Origin: Synergistaceae bacterium | Lineage (GTDB): Bacteria; Synergistota; Synergistia; Synergistales; Synergistaceae | Assembly (NCBI GenBank): GCA_031274115.1 | Contig: JAISQP010000079.1 | Location: forward strand, 1-6,590 | Direction: 5' to 3' | Length of the DNA stretch: 6,590 nucleotides | Shown: positions 1-6,590 of the stretch, one piece after another | How the letters are laid out: every line of letters begins with the position of its first letter | Numbering within the stretch: position 1 is the first letter of the stretch | Made by a program: the position numbers and the translations under genes | Notes under the pieces: model-generated | Told to the model about the DNA's origin: nothing | Database searches by the model: none | The model's input: only the letters and a program-made list of their open reading frames with translations

Positions 1-2456
1 CTGCATGACATGCAAGATCTCCTCAAATCGCCGAGAAGCTCTATTATACGGCCCGCGTCCGCCCCTGTTTTAGCGCTCTTCTCCGGTTCGGACGAGAGAG
101 ACGTTTCAAGCAGAGCGTCCCTGACGGCAAGCATTGCGCGGCATACGGCTTCGGTCTTCTCCGCGCAGACTGCCGTGTTTCGTTCTTTCGACGCTATTTC
201 AAGTTCATAGGCCGACTTCGATATCTCCTCCGCGCCTACGCTCGCGAACGCCGATTTCAAAGCGTGCATCTGTATGGAGTAATCTCCCCAGTTTTCGTCG
301 GCCAGAAATGACCTGACGTCCTCGACGCGGCCGGCGAGAGTATCGCGGAGCCGCCGCAAGACCTCAATATACATGGAGCTGCCGCCGCCCGAATATTTCA
401 GCCCAAGTTCGACGTCAAGCCCGTCGATTCGTCGGAGTTCGCTGAGCAGCCCGTCATGTCGGGTATCCTCGCCCCTCTTTTCAGTCTCTTCCGCGGCTGC
501 TATTTTTTCAGGCGGCAGCCACCTTGCGAGTACGGCGTTCAGCTTGTCGCTCTCGATGGGTTTGGATATGAAATCGTTCATCCCGGATTTGATAAAGGTC
601 TCCATCACGCCGGACACCGCGTTGGCGCTCAAAGCCACTATGGGCACGGTCTCGCATACGCCGCCCATTGCCCTTATGCGCGCTGTGGCCTCTATACCGT
701 CCATGTCCGGCATCATGTGATCCATAAAGATTATTTCGTATTTTTTCGCGCGCAGCTTCTCGATGGCCTCACGCCCGCTCATCGCGGTATCCGCGTCTAT
801 TTTATGTCTTGCCAGAAATCCCTTCGCCACTGTGAGGTTGACGGCGTTGTCATCGACCACCAGCACATTCGCGCCCGGCGCGGCAATGATCATGGGACGT
901 CCGGCGCCCTCTTCCAAGGCGGCAGGGTCGCCCTCGACCAGAGGCAGCAGTATCGTGAACGTCGAACCCTTGCCGTACTCGCTCTCGACGGAGACGCTCC
1001 CGCCCATAATGTCGATCAGCTTTTTGGTTATGGAGAGGCCGAGCCCGGCGCCCGCGATGCGGCGGTTTTTCTCCCTGTCCAGCTGTTCGAAGACGCCGAA
1101 CAGCTTTGGAAGGTCCTCATCCTTTATGCCGATTCCCGAGTCGGACACGGTGAAGGCGACATACTCCCCTGAGCGCGATACCCGCCTCGCGCTCAAGTCA
1201 ACATACCCGTCTCTCGTGTACTTGACGGCGTTATTCACGACATTCGTCACAACCTGACAGATGCGGACCTCGTCCCCGCGCAGCACGCCCGGAATGTTCC
1301 CGTCAAAGCTATGCGTGAATTTCAGGCCCTTTGCCGACGCGAGATAATTTCCAATCGAGCATATATTGTCGAACGCTTCTCTGAGGTTGAAGTCCGTCAC
1401 GATCATCTCCATCTTACCGGCCTCTATCCTCGAGAAATCCAGGATATCGTTGATGATCTGCAACAGGGACCTGCCCGCCTTTTGTATATCGTAAAGGTAA
1501 CTTCTCTGCGCGTCGTTGAGGTTGTCGGCGTCCATGAGTTCGCTCATCCCCAGTATGGCGTTCATGGGAGTTCGGATCTCGTGGCTCATGCTGGCCAGGA
1601 ACTGGCTTTTGGCCTGATTGGCGAGCAGCGCCTCTTTCTTGCTCTCTTCCAGCTCGAAGACAAGCGATTTGATGTTCGCTACAGTGATGTTATACTGACT
1701 GGCCAGAGCCCCCAGGTCGTCGTTCGAAAAAATTTTCGCCCTGACGCTGAAATCGCCCTCAGCCACCGATCTGGATACCCGAAGCAGCTCGTCTATGGAA
1801 ATCCTTATGCTTCTCGACATGACGACCGTGATGACGACTGACAGCGCGCTGATCAGAGCGAGCATGAAAATTGTCATCTCAATTGTCGTCTCATATATCT
1901 CGGAGCTGGTCTTCGTCTCCGCTTCGCTGCCGGCTTTGTTGAAATCGACGAGCGACCTGACGCTCGATTCCAAGGCGATATAGGCGTCCATGGACTCTCC
2001 TTCTATGAGGTCCGTCGCGTCCCCGGCGCAGTTTGCGTCGAGCAGCCCGATGATTTTTCCCGACAGCGCCCAGTAAGAGCGCCACCGGTCGATCACGGCG
2101 TTTATCGCGTCTGTGTCCTGTTGTTTCTGAGCCTCGGAGTCGTATTTAACGGTGTGAATATAGTTTTTATAATTATTTACATATTCCTCGATACGCTTAC
2201 TTACGCTCTCTCGCGCGGCCAGAATATTTTTCAGCTTCCGCGGGTCCCTGACGATGGCGTAGTTGATGTCGTATCTTCTCGCGGCCGATATATTCATCGC
2301 GAGGTCGCCGAGTTCCGACAGTACGCCGGCCCACGCGTCCGAGAACACGACCTCCTCGTTTATTCGCGACAGCGAGCGCACAACGTACAGCCCAAAACAT
2401 ATATTCAACAGAACTATCGTCGTAAAACTCAGGATCAGCTTAGTTTTGGTACTCAT
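1..2456 (-). CDS. Membrane hybrid histidine kinase with receiver and Hpt domains (3' end outside window)
   Basis: An inner-membrane sensor kinase for a multistep phosphorelay (His to Asp to His). I translated 818 codons without a stop; the C-terminus lies beyond the left edge. Order of parts: membrane helix about 5-25; extracytoplasmic helical region about 26-194, resembling a four-helix-bundle sensor; second helix about 195-213; HAMP about 215-267; HisKA with SHEIRTPMN, phospho-acceptor His292; HATPase with N-box Asn409, DSGIG at 439-443 and GAGLGL at 469-474 (the usual Thr of GTGLGL is Ala); receiver about 530-645 with acid pair Asp535/Asp536, phospho-acceptor Asp579, Ser610 in place of the common Thr, and Lys632; Hpt with HALKS, His731. 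All catalytic residues are present, so it should be active. The start is firm: an in-frame TAA lies 9 bases upstream and GGAG at 2468-2471 precedes the ATG by 11 bases. It is the last visible gene of a three-gene operon. The ligand is unknown, and there is no DNA-binding domain in the visible part. Confidence 0.96.
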   Translation of the reverse strand, partial: MSTKTKLILSFTTIVLLNICFGLYVVRSLSRINEEVVFSDAWAGVLSELGDLAMNISAARRYDINYAIVRDPRKLKNILAARESVSKRIEEYVNNYKNYIHTVKYDSEAQKQQDTDAINAVIDRWRSYWALSGKIIGLLDANCAGDATDLIEGESMDAYIALESSVRSLVDFNKAGSEAETKTSSEIYETTIEMTIFMLALISALSVVITVVMSRSIRISIDELLRVSRSVAEGDFSVRAKIFSNDDLGALASQYNITVANIKSLVFELEESKKEALLANQAKSQFLASMSHEIRTPMNAILGMSELMDADNLNDAQRSYLYDIQKAGRSLLQIINDILDFSRIEAGKMEMIVTDFNLREAFDNICSIGNYLASAKGLKFTHSFDGNIPGVLRGDEVRICQVVTNVVNNAVKYTRDGYVDLSARRVSRSGEYVAFTVSDSGIGIKDEDLPKLFGVFEQLDREKNRRIAGAGLGLSITKKLIDIMGGSVSVESEYGKGSTFTILLPLVEGDPAALEEGAGRPMIIAAPGANVLVVDDNAVNLTVAKGFLARHKIDADTAMSGREAIEKLRAKKYEIIFMDHMMPDMDGIEATARIRAMGGVCETVPIVALSANAVSGVMETFIKSGMNDFISKPIESDKLNAVLARWLPPEKIAAAEETEKRGEDTRHDGLLSELRRIDGLDVELGLKYSGGGSSMYIEVLRRLRDTLAGRVEDVRSFLADENWGDYSIQMHALKSAFASVGAEEISKSAYELEIASKERNTAVCAEKTEAVCRAMLAVRDALLETSLSSEPEKSAKTGADAGRIIELLGDLRRSCMSC

Positions 2457-2483: not shown

Positions 2484-3026
2484 CTATTCGACCCGACTCA
2501 GAAAAACCTGGGCGGAACAGACGCAGTTCCGCCCGCATATCGGACAGAAGTAACCGAAAAGGTCAAAACCCTTGTAAAAATCCTTATAGTATCCCATATC
2601 CATCCTTTCGCCGAATATATCAAGTACGCGTATGGCTGGAATCTCCCCGTCGGGCGTCACCCACAGCTCGTGAAGGACATATTTGGCGCCCCTTCGGATC
2701 AGTTCTTCCTTCGCCCTCGCGTATAGCAGGCCGGAGACGCCCCAGTGTCTGTACTCCTCTGTGACCAGAACAGCCTCGCCTGAATACGACCGATCTTCTC
2801 CGACAATCTCGCGTATTTTTTCGAGGATATCGTGATGAGAACCGAATATCACCGTTCCCTCCACATAAATCAACAAGCCCGCCATGGCCCCGCCCAGCGC
2901 CGTATACTTCAGGCAGATGTTCTCCGGGTTCTCCAGCGTCTCCTTCAAACGGGGGGCCACGCCATACCCATAGTTGATATAGGCGCAGTGAAGCCTCACG
3001 AGTTCGTTCAGGTCATCCGCGGCCAT
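2484..3026 (-). CDS. GNAT-family N-acetyltransferase with a C-terminal Cys cluster
   Basis: A predicted cytoplasmic acetyltransferase of 180 residues, the usual size for a single GNAT domain; the substrate is unknown. Residues 85-117 match the GNAT acetyl-CoA-binding motif A: a beta strand (AVLVTEEYR), then the R/QxxGxG/A pyrophosphate loop in a relaxed form (Arg93-His-Trp-Gly96-Val-Ser98), then a helix ending in ELIRRGAKYV. Residues 119-150, including PDGEIPA and a Gly/Tyr-rich segment, correspond to the region where GNATs place the Asn/Ala helix and the final strands. The tail carries CPICG then CVC, giving Cys161, 164, 168 and 170 (CxxCxxxCxC), a likely metal site not typical of GNATs. The ATG at 3026 is chosen because GGAG at 3035-3038 sits 8 bases before it. 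A longer reading frame exists but would overlap the upstream gene by almost 300 bases. It starts 17 bases after the upstream stop and ends 27 bases before the kinase gene. Fold assignment is good; function is open. Confidence 0.85.
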   Translation of the reverse strand: MAADDLNELVRLHCAYINYGYGVAPRLKETLENPENICLKYTALGGAMAGLLIYVEGTVIFGSHHDILEKIREIVGEDRSYSGEAVLVTEEYRHWGVSGLLYARAKEELIRRGAKYVLHELWVTPDGEIPAIRVLDIFGERMDMGYYKDFYKGFDLFGYFCPICGRNCVCSAQVFLSRVE

Positions 3027-3043: not shown

Positions 3044-6004
3044 TCAAACGCGTCCCTCTCCTTCCGTCCGTACGAAACGGTTTTCCATGACGCCAAACAT
3101 AATGAAGATGAGCAGGAAAATCGTTCCAGCGCCGCCCACCAACAGACAGGCCTTGTCGTAACCCATCCCCAGCAGGGCCCCCAGGACAGCCGGGCCGCTC
3201 GCCAAGGCGAGACTCGACGCCAGGTTGTAAATGCCCATTGACCTGTCGCCGCCGTAAGCGATAACGACGCCGAGAGTCGCGAAATAAATATTCTGTATCA
3301 CCATGCCGAAACCGTCCAGAATATTTATCACGCACGCCGCTATGACGGAGGACGCAAATGAGGGGATAACGCCGAAGATAATTATCCCCGAGATATACGC
3401 GAGATTTACGGCGACGTTTCCATACTTCGCGCCAATGCGCCCCCGGATGTACTCCGCAAGCGGCGCCCCCGCAAATATCGCCGCGGCGCCGGAGAACAGC
3501 AGTACCTGGCCTATTGTGACGTCCGAATAGCCAAGCCCGCTGACATAGAGAGGAAAGACGTAGTCCTTAAACCCAAGGATGACATTGAACGGCAGCATCA
3601 AAAGCAGGAAGAACATGCACACATGACGGTCCGCCAGGAACCGCCCCGTCGATATTGACCTGGAATCAGCGGACGCCGCCATCGCGGGAGCGTCTCCGGG
3701 AGTACAGGCGTATCCGAAGAACAAGGCGGACAGCGTAAGCGCTGAAGCGCATCCGAAGGTAAACGGATAGCCGGACACTTCGGCAATGTACGGGCCGATC
3801 GACGCGCCGACCACGACGCCGGACATTATGCCGGTGTTCACGCCCCCCAGGAGGCTGTTGCGGCGACTCTCGTCCTGAAAACACATGGGGACGGCGTTCG
3901 TGACGACCGTGCTCAGGCTCAGCCCGACGCCGGTCGCGGCCTCGCCGGCGAGCAGCATCCAGTAATTGCCCGCGGCGACGGCTGCCGAGATAACCGCCAG
4001 TCCCGCGGACTGCGCCAGGATACCGCCGCAGAGAACACGCCTCTGCCCCAGTCTGCCGATCAGCCTGCCGGCGGCGGCGGACGACAAGGCGACAGAGAAC
4101 AGTTTGACCGACAGGGGCAGGGCGGAGCTCATAGCGCCTGAAATAGGCAGCGCAATGGACGAGCTCTCATATACGCGGGCGGATAACTGCGCGATAAACG
4201 CCGCGCTCACGTTGTCGGCGAAGAAGGCGATGAAAGTCACGGAACGGATGAATTCGGGTATGCTGCCGCCCGGACCGGCGCGCAACCTGGGAAAATCCCG
4301 TCCGCAATCGGACACCGCCACGATTTCGGAGGACAGGAGAAGAAATATTATGACGAGCACCGCGGCGCCGAGGGCGGTTTCCCTGATCTGCGCGGCCTTC
4401 GCGAGCCTGTCAGAAAAGAGATTGTAGCCGAACTCGATCAGCCCGACGATATCCCCGGCAGAGTTATACGCCGGAGCGGCGACGAACGTCCATGCGCCGT
4501 AGACGTCGCTCTCGCTCCGATACATATACGGGACGTCGCCCTTTGCGATCTCGTCGTAGCCCGAACCCGCAAACGCTCCAATCGGGTATACCGTCGGTAT
4601 CGTGTCCTCGTAATCCATGACGCCGTACAGGGCGTCCTCCTCCCACGAAAATTTCATGACCGCGTAGTACATGTACGCGCCTTCCCGCGCGGCCGAGTCG
4701 CATGGCGGCGCCAGGAACGACCGCACGCGGTTGAACGCGTCGCCCCCGTGATCCCCGAGAGACGTGATGGACTCGAGGCTGTCGCCGTAAGTGTCCTGTG
4801 AGATTTTGGACATCGCCTGCGCCAGTTGAACGAGGCCCTGACGACGCGTCTCCGACATTCGCTCACTCTCAGACCTCAATATTCCGGCGCAAACAAGCGA
4901 CGATGTGATTACGACCGAAACCCCTACGGCAAGCGTCAGCCTGACGCGAACGCTGGATTGTTCAGACGCGGCGCGCGCCGCCAGGCGTATGACAAGATAC
5001 GACGCTTCCGCAAAAACCGCGAGCAAAAGGCCCCAGATGACGAAACGCCCGAGTAAAAAGCCCTTCGACAGGGGGAAGACATCGCCCGAATATAAAAGCG
5101 CGCCGTCGCCGGTTGTCTGATACACCCTCTCCGCATCGGCGACGCTTATGATATCCTTTTCGTTGACCGTCATGCCGTGGGGGATGCTTTTTGTTTTAAA
5201 AACTTCCGCGTATTCGGGCAGACTGACCACGCGTGACGCGGCAAGGTCCGTCGCGAAAAGGCGCCCGCCCGAACCGGTCGCGATCTCCCACGGTATTTGC
5301 CCGCGTCCGTCTCCTGACCAATCATACGCGCTCCGCATCACGCCGTTCGATTCGGAATACAGTTCGCAGCGCAGGTTCATGACGTAAATGGCGTCTTGCG
5401 GCGCATCGTACAGCACATGCCTCGAGTCGGCATACGAAAGCGCGTCATATAAAACACCTCGGACGATTGAGACCTGTCCGTCAGAAATCCGATGCAAATC
5501 AAGCGAGTCGGCGCCTTTCAAAACGAAGAAAAGCGATCCGCCGTAATATTGCAGCGACCGGATGTTTCCGTACTGCATGAGTTTATCCCGAGCGTCCTCA
5601 TAGAGGCGCTCGAACAGGATTTTTTCGTAACGCCCGTCGGCCGAGTACTGAATGACGCGTTCCGCCGCAATGTTGGTGCTGACCGAGTCGTACCTGACGT
5701 CCGCTATATATACTTTTTCCCCGTCGGTAACGGCGTACTCGGCGTAATAGAATCCCTCCGTCTCCACGCCGCCGCTCGCGATACCGCGCACGCTCCCTTC
5801 CCTGATGACCGAGACTCTCGTTTTGCTCCTGTCGACTACGAGCATGACGCCTTCGGGCGACGTCGAGACATACGATGGCTGCTCCAGGGCGAGTTCGAGT
5901 TTAAATGGGTTTGAATAGAGCATATGCCGCTGTGAATAGATAGTCAAAACAAAAACGATGACTGACAAGATGTTTGTGATTTTAAAAATCTTCGCGCCAA
6001 ACAT
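3044..6004 (-). CDS. Beta-propeller/Cache/MFS fusion: sensor-transporter membrane protein
   Basis: An inner-membrane protein of 986 residues, more than twice the length of an ordinary MFS carrier (about 400). Parts in order: signal-anchor helix about 10-27; extracytoplasmic domain about 35-310 with repeated beta-strand units of NHL/six-bladed-propeller style (for example GVMLVVDRSKTRVSVI near 52-67, EKVYIAD near 96-102, GRLFATDLAASRVV near 247-260); helix 318-341; short basic loop; helix 354-376; extracytoplasmic domain about 378-540 ending in PAYNSAGDIVGLIEFGY (511-527), the pattern typical of Cache sensors; helix 543-562; MFS about 586-972 with 12 hydrophobic segments, motif A at 646-658 (GRLIGRLGQRRVL) and a central loop near 768-792. 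Basic residues fall in the predicted cytoplasmic loops, giving a consistent 16-helix topology. The start is firm: an in-frame TAG directly precedes the ATG, and GAGG/GGGG lies at 6011-6016. It is the first gene of the operon with the acetyltransferase and kinase. Whether it transports, senses or both is unknown, as is the substrate. Confidence 0.92.
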   Translation of the reverse strand: MFGAKIFKITNILSVIVFVLTIYSQRHMLYSNPFKLELALEQPSYVSTSPEGVMLVVDRSKTRVSVIREGSVRGIASGGVETEGFYYAEYAVTDGEKVYIADVRYDSVSTNIAAERVIQYSADGRYEKILFERLYEDARDKLMQYGNIRSLQYYGGSLFFVLKGADSLDLHRISDGQVSIVRGVLYDALSYADSRHVLYDAPQDAIYVMNLRCELYSESNGVMRSAYDWSGDGRGQIPWEIATGSGGRLFATDLAASRVVSLPEYAEVFKTKSIPHGMTVNEKDIISVADAERVYQTTGDGALLYSGDVFPLSKGFLLGRFVIWGLLLAVFAEASYLVIRLAARAASEQSSVRVRLTLAVGVSVVITSSLVCAGILRSESERMSETRRQGLVQLAQAMSKISQDTYGDSLESITSLGDHGGDAFNRVRSFLAPPCDSAAREGAYMYYAVMKFSWEEDALYGVMDYEDTIPTVYPIGAFAGSGYDEIAKGDVPYMYRSESDVYGAWTFVAAPAYNSAGDIVGLIEFGYNLFSDRLAKAAQIRETALGAAVLVIIFLLLSSEIVAVSDCGRDFPRLRAGPGGSIPEFIRSVTFIAFFADNVSAAFIAQLSARVYESSSIALPISGAMSSALPLSVKLFSVALSSAAAGRLIGRLGQRRVLCGGILAQSAGLAVISAAVAAGNYWMLLAGEAATGVGLSLSTVVTNAVPMCFQDESRRNSLLGGVNTGIMSGVVVGASIGPYIAEVSGYPFTFGCASALTLSALFFGYACTPGDAPAMAASADSRSISTGRFLADRHVCMFFLLLMLPFNVILGFKDYVFPLYVSGLGYSDVTIGQVLLFSGAAAIFAGAPLAEYIRGRIGAKYGNVAVNLAYISGIIIFGVIPSFASSVIAACVINILDGFGMVIQNIYFATLGVVIAYGGDRSMGIYNLASSLALASGPAVLGALLGMGYDKACLLVGGAGTIFLLIFIMFGVMENRFVRTEGEGRV

Positions 6005-6133: not shown

Positions 6134-6590
6134 TCAGTCAAAATTTTCGGTGTTATATATGCCTTTTCCCCTATATTCTCCCGCTAAAATATCGAATCCA
6201 TATTCGTAAAAAATCTTTTCCCGGTAAAAAAACACGGCAGACGACAACTCCGAAGGATAGCTTTCGAGTCTCGATCTCTCGTTAAAATGAGCATAAGCCT
6301 GATATTTTACAATATAATTATCGCTCCACTCTTTTGTCCGGTAGAGGCTGACGTTTTTAGAGAAACTTGCGATCAAGAGGACCGTCAGGATGACTTTAAG
6401 GCAGGGAAGAATAATTTTAATGTTTTTGGCTTTGTTCCTTATCGCCTCTCCGTACCAACCGGCAATCTCGACGATGGAGCAGACTATCAGCGGAAACGAC
6501 GCCAACACGCCGCGTTCCGGCGGATAGATGTTCGTTAATAAATTAGCCAGGAACCACAAAAAAAAATGAACTGTCAGAGGAAGCAGGAAT
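6134..6590 (-). CDS. C-terminal part of an unidentified polytopic membrane protein (5' end outside window)
   Basis: The reading frame is open from the right edge for 151 codons to a TGA at 6134-6136; the start lies outside the window. A TTG at 6559 is in frame but has no reason to be the start, since the frame stays open and hydrophobic before it. Visible parts: a hydrophobic segment about 1-18, a short loop with NIYPPERG (20-27), a hydrophobic segment about 28-45, a basic stretch about 50-58 (RNKAKNIK), a hydrophobic segment about 59-77, and a polar, Tyr- and Glu-rich tail of about 74 residues. I do not recognise the family with certainty. A membrane helix bundle followed by a short soluble tail, with a PPER loop, would fit the end of a GT-C-like or DUF6056-like membrane protein, but this is a weak guess. 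The stretch is more AT-rich than the operon to its left, so the two probably have different histories. It is separated from the next gene by 128 bases, more than within the operon. Confidence 0.7.
   Translation of the reverse strand, partial: FLLPLTVHFFLWFLANLLTNIYPPERGVLASFPLIVCSIVEIAGWYGEAIRNKAKNIKIILPCLKVILTVLLIASFSKNVSLYRTKEWSDNYIVKYQAYAHFNERSRLESYPSELSSAVFFYREKIFYEYGFDILAGEYRGKGIYNTENFD

Follow-up and report, generated by a model that had tools for sequence, protein, structure and literature searches.

A candidate transporter-derived receptor: a propeller-Cache-MFS fusion protein co-encoded with a SpoIIE phosphatase or a histidine kinase

The window analyzed here is the whole 6,590-nucleotide stretch of contig JAISQP010000079.1 from a Synergistaceae bacterium. 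It carries a gene for a 986-residue fusion protein in which a membrane anchor, a beta-propeller, a transmembrane hairpin, a Cache domain, a further membrane helix and a complete major facilitator superfamily (MFS) carrier follow one another on a single chain. This architecture is conserved among relatives, as is the order of the surrounding genes, which include one of two alternative partner enzymes, a SpoIIE phosphatase or, in the window, a hybrid histidine kinase. Because the gene order is conserved while the output enzyme comes in two kinds, we read the fusion as an input protein. We regard it as an even proposition that it is a transporter-derived receptor (a transceptor or co-receptor) providing input to a SpoIIE phosphatase partner switch or, in the window, to the kinase.

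Relatives of the fusion gene and their partner genes

Beside the window's own protein, a protein search returned seven relatives with 26-90% identity and 92-98% query coverage, two of them with Synergistaceae names, and the same eight proteins were recovered when the search was repeated with the 8-row alignment. A profile scan of genome contigs with the alignment of relatives identified 38 loci, comprising 33 full-length frames, one shorter frame (L004, 881 amino acids, lacking roughly the initial third of the propeller, its aligned part beginning near residue 139 of the window's protein), three contig-end fragments and one broken frame (L038). According to their records, these loci belong to Synergistaceae, Lachnospiraceae, Oscillospiraceae/Ruminococcaceae, a Tissierellia, a Syntrophomonadaceae (L038) and less defined Clostridia, and many come from gut or rumen samples. 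Where source annotations of the relatives are present, they read MFS transporter or permease. With a Lachnospiraceae member as query, the protein search yielded 41 proteins including the query. Whole-genome profile matches (E≤1e-60) were found in 15 of 185 Synergistota and in nine of 391 evenly drawn Clostridia (five whole-protein and four partial matches), counts that include centre genomes, score few candidates per genome and are therefore rough. From these frequencies the fusion family is recurrent yet uncommon. The initial annotation had asked how widespread the fusion is, and the relatives show a family rather than an isolated oddity.

In the window, the fusion gene is followed in the same direction by a GNAT-type gene and a kinase gene. 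The first two are 17 nt apart, provided that the GNAT-type gene starts at the ATG at 3026, and the last two 27 nt:

3044..6004, minus strand: fusion gene, 986 aa (anchor, propeller, transmembrane hairpin, Cache, transmembrane helix, MFS); open reading frame, structure model and, in the set of 38 loci, 33 relatives of full length and the shorter L004
2484..3026, minus strand: GNAT-type protein with a C-terminal CPxCx3-4CxC cluster (2517-2546); Pfam GNAT 16.2 bits, below the cut-off of 20.7
3..2456, minus strand: hybrid histidine kinase (4HB_MCP-HAMP-HisKA-HATPase-REC-Hpt), truncated by the contig end; begins 27 nt past the GNAT gene

For a census of gene order, 37 loci from the contig scan were combined with the window; the broken L038 was dropped, L021 and L023 were both included, and so were L034-L036. 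Loci were considered to have room if at least 350 nt were available for the GNAT-type gene and at least 1700 nt for the signaling enzyme. A GNAT-type gene lies next to the fusion in all 37 loci with room, and a membrane signaling enzyme is co-encoded in all 36 loci with room, namely a SpoIIE phosphatase with its own sensor in 33 and a hybrid histidine kinase in three Synergistaceae loci (the window, L001 and L002). The co-encoding of a carrier with a sensor kinase or phosphatase, as looked for in a transceptor, is therefore without exception in this set. The kinase gene of L002 is located just upstream of the fusion, and a receiver protein adjoins the kinase in L001. Gene order is kept among fusions just ~21-25% identical to that of the window, and across two phyla. 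Since members of these loci supplied the profiles for GNAT and SpoIIE, the census measures gene order, and Pfam scans served as the independent check. In the SpoIIE alignment (26 of the 33 partners) Pfam identified SpoIIE in 26/26, HAMP in 15 and a fused RsbW-type ATPase in five. In the GNAT alignment (27 of the 37 found) Pfam GNAT matched at E≤0.01 in 23/27 proteins, the window's own not among these, while no named NCBIfam family fitted the 27 proteins (two stray matches). The C-terminal cysteine cluster is invariant in 27/27 of these proteins and is suggestive of metal binding.

Components of a partner switch were also encoded near many of the fusions. Within 6-7 kb, an RsbW-type sequence was found in 16/38 loci (seven of the 16 fused to SpoIIE; some scores weak) and a STAS protein in 12/38, with either present in 20/38 and both in 8/38. 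An ECF sigma gene lies directly upstream of the fusion in L006 and L016. The full Rsb-type switch (SpoIIE, STAS and RsbW) is not present in the window, where the kinase takes its place and the contig ends. The fullest cluster is that of L006 (1334-13020), in which STAS, RsbW, two NHLP-type peptide export ABC genes, ECF sigma, fusion, GNAT-type and SpoIIE genes stand in a row. In L030 (6903-7568) and L033 (6870-7535), a single ABC ATPase gene separates STAS from RsbW a short way upstream of the fusion.

Architecture of the fusion protein

The fusion is encoded on the minus strand (6004..3044) by 986 codons that begin with ATG and are open throughout, while the plus-strand reading of the same stretch is interrupted by stops. 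The initial annotation had described a single uninterrupted gene with a propeller, a Cache domain and a 12-helix MFS, and this layout was confirmed by the structure model together with profile and fold searches:

5933..6001, minus strand: predicted N-terminal membrane anchor, residues 2-24 (helix in the structure model)
5069..5896, minus strand: six-bladed NHL-type beta-propeller, residues 37-312, predicted outside (DSSP strands of the model, from which the blade count is read; profile matches)
4877..5065, minus strand: predicted transmembrane hairpin, residues 314-376 (model helices 314-347 and 352-404)
4382..4876, minus strand: single Cache sensor domain, residues 377-541, predicted outside (fold search)
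4250..4381, minus strand: predicted membrane helix and low-confidence cytoplasmic linker, residues 542-585 (model helix 529-569; pLDDT, the model's confidence score, about 54 at 571-580)
3080..4258, minus strand: MFS carrier, residues 583-975 (Pfam, fold)
3563..3568, minus strand: Lys813-Asp814 of transmembrane helix 7 (TM7), basic in 39/39 and acidic in 38/39 aligned sequences; Asp814 aligns with NorA E222

Pfam was confident for the MFS alone (2.6e-20, residues 590-938; MFS_1 73.1 bits versus a cut-off of 33.4), with NHL (14.5 versus 20 bits) and dCache_3 (14.3 versus 25.7 bits) below cut-off and no Pfam Cache family above it in the window protein. NCBIfam gave a sub-threshold match to a multidrug-resistance superfamily. 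By themselves, the two databases are too weak for naming the sensor domains. The propeller profile, compared with PDB sequences, matched Pizza7H (4.8e-25) and the PknD sensor (2.6e-12), and the relative P0006 passes the Pfam NHL cut-off with 25 bits; the full-length model and the sequence profiles thus agree on a predicted propeller fold with NHL-type similarity. For residues 377-541 the fold search was decisive and supported a Cache/PAS-like extracytoplasmic fold. Here sCache_3_3 was matched in 17/33 sequences at E≤1 (best 0.0013), and the sequence profile reached E 0.34 or worse against solved structures. Moreover, the Cache domain is related to the sensor part of the partner SpoIIE phosphatases (hhalign probability 96.9, E 1.5e-10). 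The propeller strands and the Cache/PAS-like fold, whose absence from a predicted structure had been set down beforehand as grounds for abandoning the annotation, were both recovered, the former in the full-length model and the latter by the fold search.

The same annotation had allowed for an assembly error joining two genes, and such an artefact, in assembly or annotation, is practically negligible. A frame of equal length and 90% identity lies on a separate contig (L001), the 33 full-length frames among the 38 loci come from many records, and purifying selection is similar across all segments of the fusion; no support for an artefact was found, the broken L038 and the shortened L004 being the irregular frames among the 38 loci. 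Upstream of the fusion, a partial membrane-protein frame (6134-6589) on the same strand is probably outside the module, because the 90% identical locus L001 has other genes at this place. No Rfam family reached its gathering score in the window, and promoter-like sites (6 versus 4.1 in shuffles) and terminator-like sites (7 versus 6.4) were about equal to expectation.

The MFS body was compared in an alignment of 39 fusion proteins, from which L023 (a near-copy of L021) and the contig-edge fragments L034-L036 were left out, and into which L001 and L002 entered as P0002 and P0003. MFS_1 matched 39/39 aligned sequences at E≤0.1, and the 12-helix fold is complete, with close fold matches to active carriers. 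The nearest carriers by profile and fold are the drug and amine carriers NorA, VMAT and MdfA, with 9-19% identity to drug exporters; an acidic site in TM7 is common to NorA and the fusion, but the solved chains of these carriers comprise about 390-510 residues without such sensor domains. Glu222 (E222) and Asp307 (D307) are the residues altered in NorA mutant structures. The D307 column is acidic in 0/39 fusion sequences, although the window and its nearest relative (2/39) have Asp897 one position before it, so that an acid similar to D307 may still be present in the window. In motif A, Gly653 is kept in 37/39 and the basic residue 655 in 38/39 sequences, but the Asp of loop 2-3 is Gly650 in the window (Glu in 21/39, Asp in 5/39); the "readable motif A" of the initial annotation was accordingly overstated, correct for the glycine and basic residues and not for the aspartate. 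Motif A varies within the MFS, and the missing Asp therefore leaves membership by fold standing. The basic position of motif B is Glu in the window and Lys in 27/39.

Transport by the MFS body is possible from these residues, and a gated transporter, in which a ligand of the propeller and Cache domains opens or closes an active MFS and the neighboring signaling genes merely control its expression, has to be weighed. The complete fold with its close matches to active carriers, the retained TM7 acid, Asp897 near the D307 column and the kept Gly and basic residues of motif A all speak for it. We nevertheless consider it unlikely, given the lost motif A aspartate, the non-acidic D307 column, the Glu in motif B, and a tie to a phosphatase or kinase in 36/36 loci that is, in our judgement, unusual for a plain transporter. 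The initial annotation had left the choice between a gated transporter and a receptor retaining the fold of a carrier. Both are reasonable options, and the gene neighborhood favors the receptor, since every locus with room co-encodes a SpoIIE phosphatase or histidine kinase. The opposite extreme, a dead MFS scaffold whose 12 helices merely anchor and position the propeller and Cache domains, is highly improbable: it would accommodate the loss of the motif A acid in the window and the non-acidic D307 column in 39/39, but the MFS is the best conserved part of the protein (mean column identity 51%, versus 45% for Cache and 38% for the propeller), including polar and charged residues inside its helices.

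Divergent relatives, peptide export genes and partner exchange

Twenty further stretches formed a divergent set. Three of these (L056, L057, L060) encode consecutive RsbW, fusion, SpoIIE and STAS proteins without a GNAT of the census type (the parts of L056 confirmed by Pfam). A gene related to that for the LPG_synthase_C-type protein of L067, a protein type with a GNAT fold, occurs in eight loci. Among other arrangements, L054 (5617-11536) has a tandem pair of fusion genes on one contig, with the usual partners not recognized nearby. In L071 and L072, the encoded proteins measure 770-790 aa and combine a related MFS with a different sensor region; their MFS genes adjoin solute-binding-protein-like and GNAT-like genes (L071, 3868-8116; L072, 4446-8874) by our reading of the sequence, Pfam GNAT reaching 20.7 bits in L071 only. 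L073 (5698-9357) contains a 1220-aa Cache and MFS frame whose N-terminal region is not matched by the propeller profile; its MFS has a long Gly/Arg-rich insert, and SpoIIE and RsbW genes are nearby.

NHLP-type peptide export ABC genes are located upstream of the fusion in L006, L056, L057, L059, L062, L063, L064 and L070, with TIGR03797 over cut-off on these contigs; L006 is the only member of the first locus set in which the fusion is combined with NHLP genes, the other seven loci being divergent. A Nif11-type leader peptide gene is present in L062. Two further, conserved genes lie between the export ABC genes and the fusion in that locus, one for a DUF7005 protein with an HExxH-like stretch, read by eye (3728-4624; found in six loci), and one for a 457-aa protein without a Pfam or NCBIfam match (4621-5991; found in seven loci). 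In Synergistota, TIGR03797 exceeded the cut-off in 8/15 genomes with the fusion (six on the fusion's contig) versus 16/170 without (Fisher p 9e-5, uncorrected for kinship), and in Clostridia in 2/9 genomes with a fusion match, one of them on the same contig. Neither of the two window-clade genomes searched had TIGR03797 over cut-off (best 338 bits in one, G001; none at E≤1e-100 in the other, G002), and the window contains no NHLP-type export gene. As the window's clade shows no such gene, the association is informative for the family rather than directly for the window.

These genes suggest a further explanation, in which a peptide or small toxic molecule is exported by the MFS, or warded off by it, and is modified by the GNAT protein, the switch controlling the set. 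The proximity by profile and fold to VMAT and to drug exporters including NorA would fit, as would the eight loci with export genes and the enrichment in Synergistota. Its weak points are the clade of the window itself, the single such locus in the first set, the just 2/9 Clostridia and the low identity to drug exporters, and we judge it distinctly improbable.

In a tree of 55 fusions, from which L004 was excluded, as it was from the propeller alignment, the three kinase-linked Synergistaceae proteins group with one protein of unknown gene context at 100% support. Another two proteins of unknown context join this set, and the sister clade includes the SpoIIE-linked L003. The tree was rooted at the midpoint, with SH-aLRT support from a quick search and long branches flagged; its simplest reading is that a phosphatase was exchanged for a kinase in evolution.

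A proposed receptor and its known counterparts

In the receptor reading, the NHL propeller and Cache domain would bind ligand or protein signals outside the membrane, and the MFS body with its conserved TM7 charged pair would contribute another shape-changing element, either ligand-binding or proton-linked. Contact within the membrane would then relay the state of the protein as a whole to the signaling enzyme encoded nearby. For the Bacillota, this enzyme would be the SpoIIE phosphatase, which has a sensor of its own and would act on a STAS/RsbW partner switch, beside which an ECF sigma gene is found in two loci; for the window and its Synergistaceae kin it would be the hybrid histidine kinase, with the adjoining receiver protein in L001. 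The GNAT-type protein with its cysteine cluster probably belongs to this pathway as well, either as a regulatory partner or as a modifying enzyme.

Several observations weigh against the receptor reading. The fusion has no cytoplasmic output domain, and both partner enzymes carry sensors of their own and may not need it as input. The TM7 acid in the NorA E222 column is kept, as expected if transport continues, and Asp897 lies near the D307 column. No RsbW or STAS was seen in 18/38 loci within the available stretch, many of these being short, and no SpoIIE, GNAT or kinase partner in the available stretch of the divergent Synergistota loci L061-L065 or of L066, L054 and L055, which speaks against a universal link. 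Furthermore, the census contains at least one near-duplicate (L021 and L023, 99.7% identical), and the 39 aligned proteins reduce to 19 clusters at 50% identity. Signaling by CbrA does not require its carrier domain, which only modulates kinase kinetics (PMC7096432).

Carrier domains in signaling have precedents. UhpC is an MFS sensor that acts on a separate histidine kinase, UhpB, and is a plain MFS protein not known to carry a propeller or Cache domain. Its likeness to the proposal for the window is that an MFS protein feeds a membrane kinase encoded by a gene of its own; in contrast, most fusion relatives are partnered by a SpoIIE phosphatase. PMC7096432 refers to UhpC as a transporter linked to a signaling system. 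In CbrA-type transceptors, a complete carrier body is likewise tied to a signaling enzyme, an SLC5 carrier being joined through STAC to a histidine kinase (PMC7096432, PMC13022988). CbrA has its kinase on the same chain and short interhelical loops, whereas the fusion has an MFS, two large preceding sensor domains and a separate output gene, usually for a phosphatase. The RsbU/RsbV/RsbW system resembles the clusters described here in its SpoIIE phosphatase, RsbW-type kinase, STAS protein and sigma factor (the last in two of our loci), but its description in the abstract of PMC11619594 is confined to a sensor phosphatase, an anti-sigma, an anti-anti-sigma and a sigma factor and includes no MFS component. 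5TMR receptors, which are fused to a SpoIIE/PPM phosphatase or an NRAMP-like carrier, share the use of a transporter-like membrane fold as receptor and a phosphatase output (PMC11109136); their membrane fold is an S-component/5TMR, and neither "MFS" nor "major facilitator" occurs in that text. Among the matches listed, no open-access title or abstract start described a propeller-Cache-MFS protein or an MFS in a SpoIIE/STAS operon, which, resting on term matching, is a weak absence. Within the text compared, the transporter-derived receptor is thus a known kind, with CbrA, UhpC and the 5TMR type nearest and none having the fusion architecture; the architecture and the constant operon of the main clade are new.

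Carriers that double as receptors are few among characterized bacterial proteins, and CbrA is called a "rare" transceptor (PMC13022988). What stands out here is that the operon stays constant across two phyla and that an MFS body would be linked to a partner switch. Tentatively, and at somewhat less than even likelihood, we propose a receptor class of mostly gut-derived bacteria, an MFS-driven partner switch, in which an MFS body and two outside sensors would form the transmembrane input of a phosphatase-driven partner switch, the output enzyme would be exchangeable for a hybrid histidine kinase, and part of the family would control NHLP-type peptide export. If this is true, MFS annotations can hide signaling proteins, and the family would offer a natural series for how a transport fold becomes a receptor, since one kind of input protein occurs with two different output enzymes.

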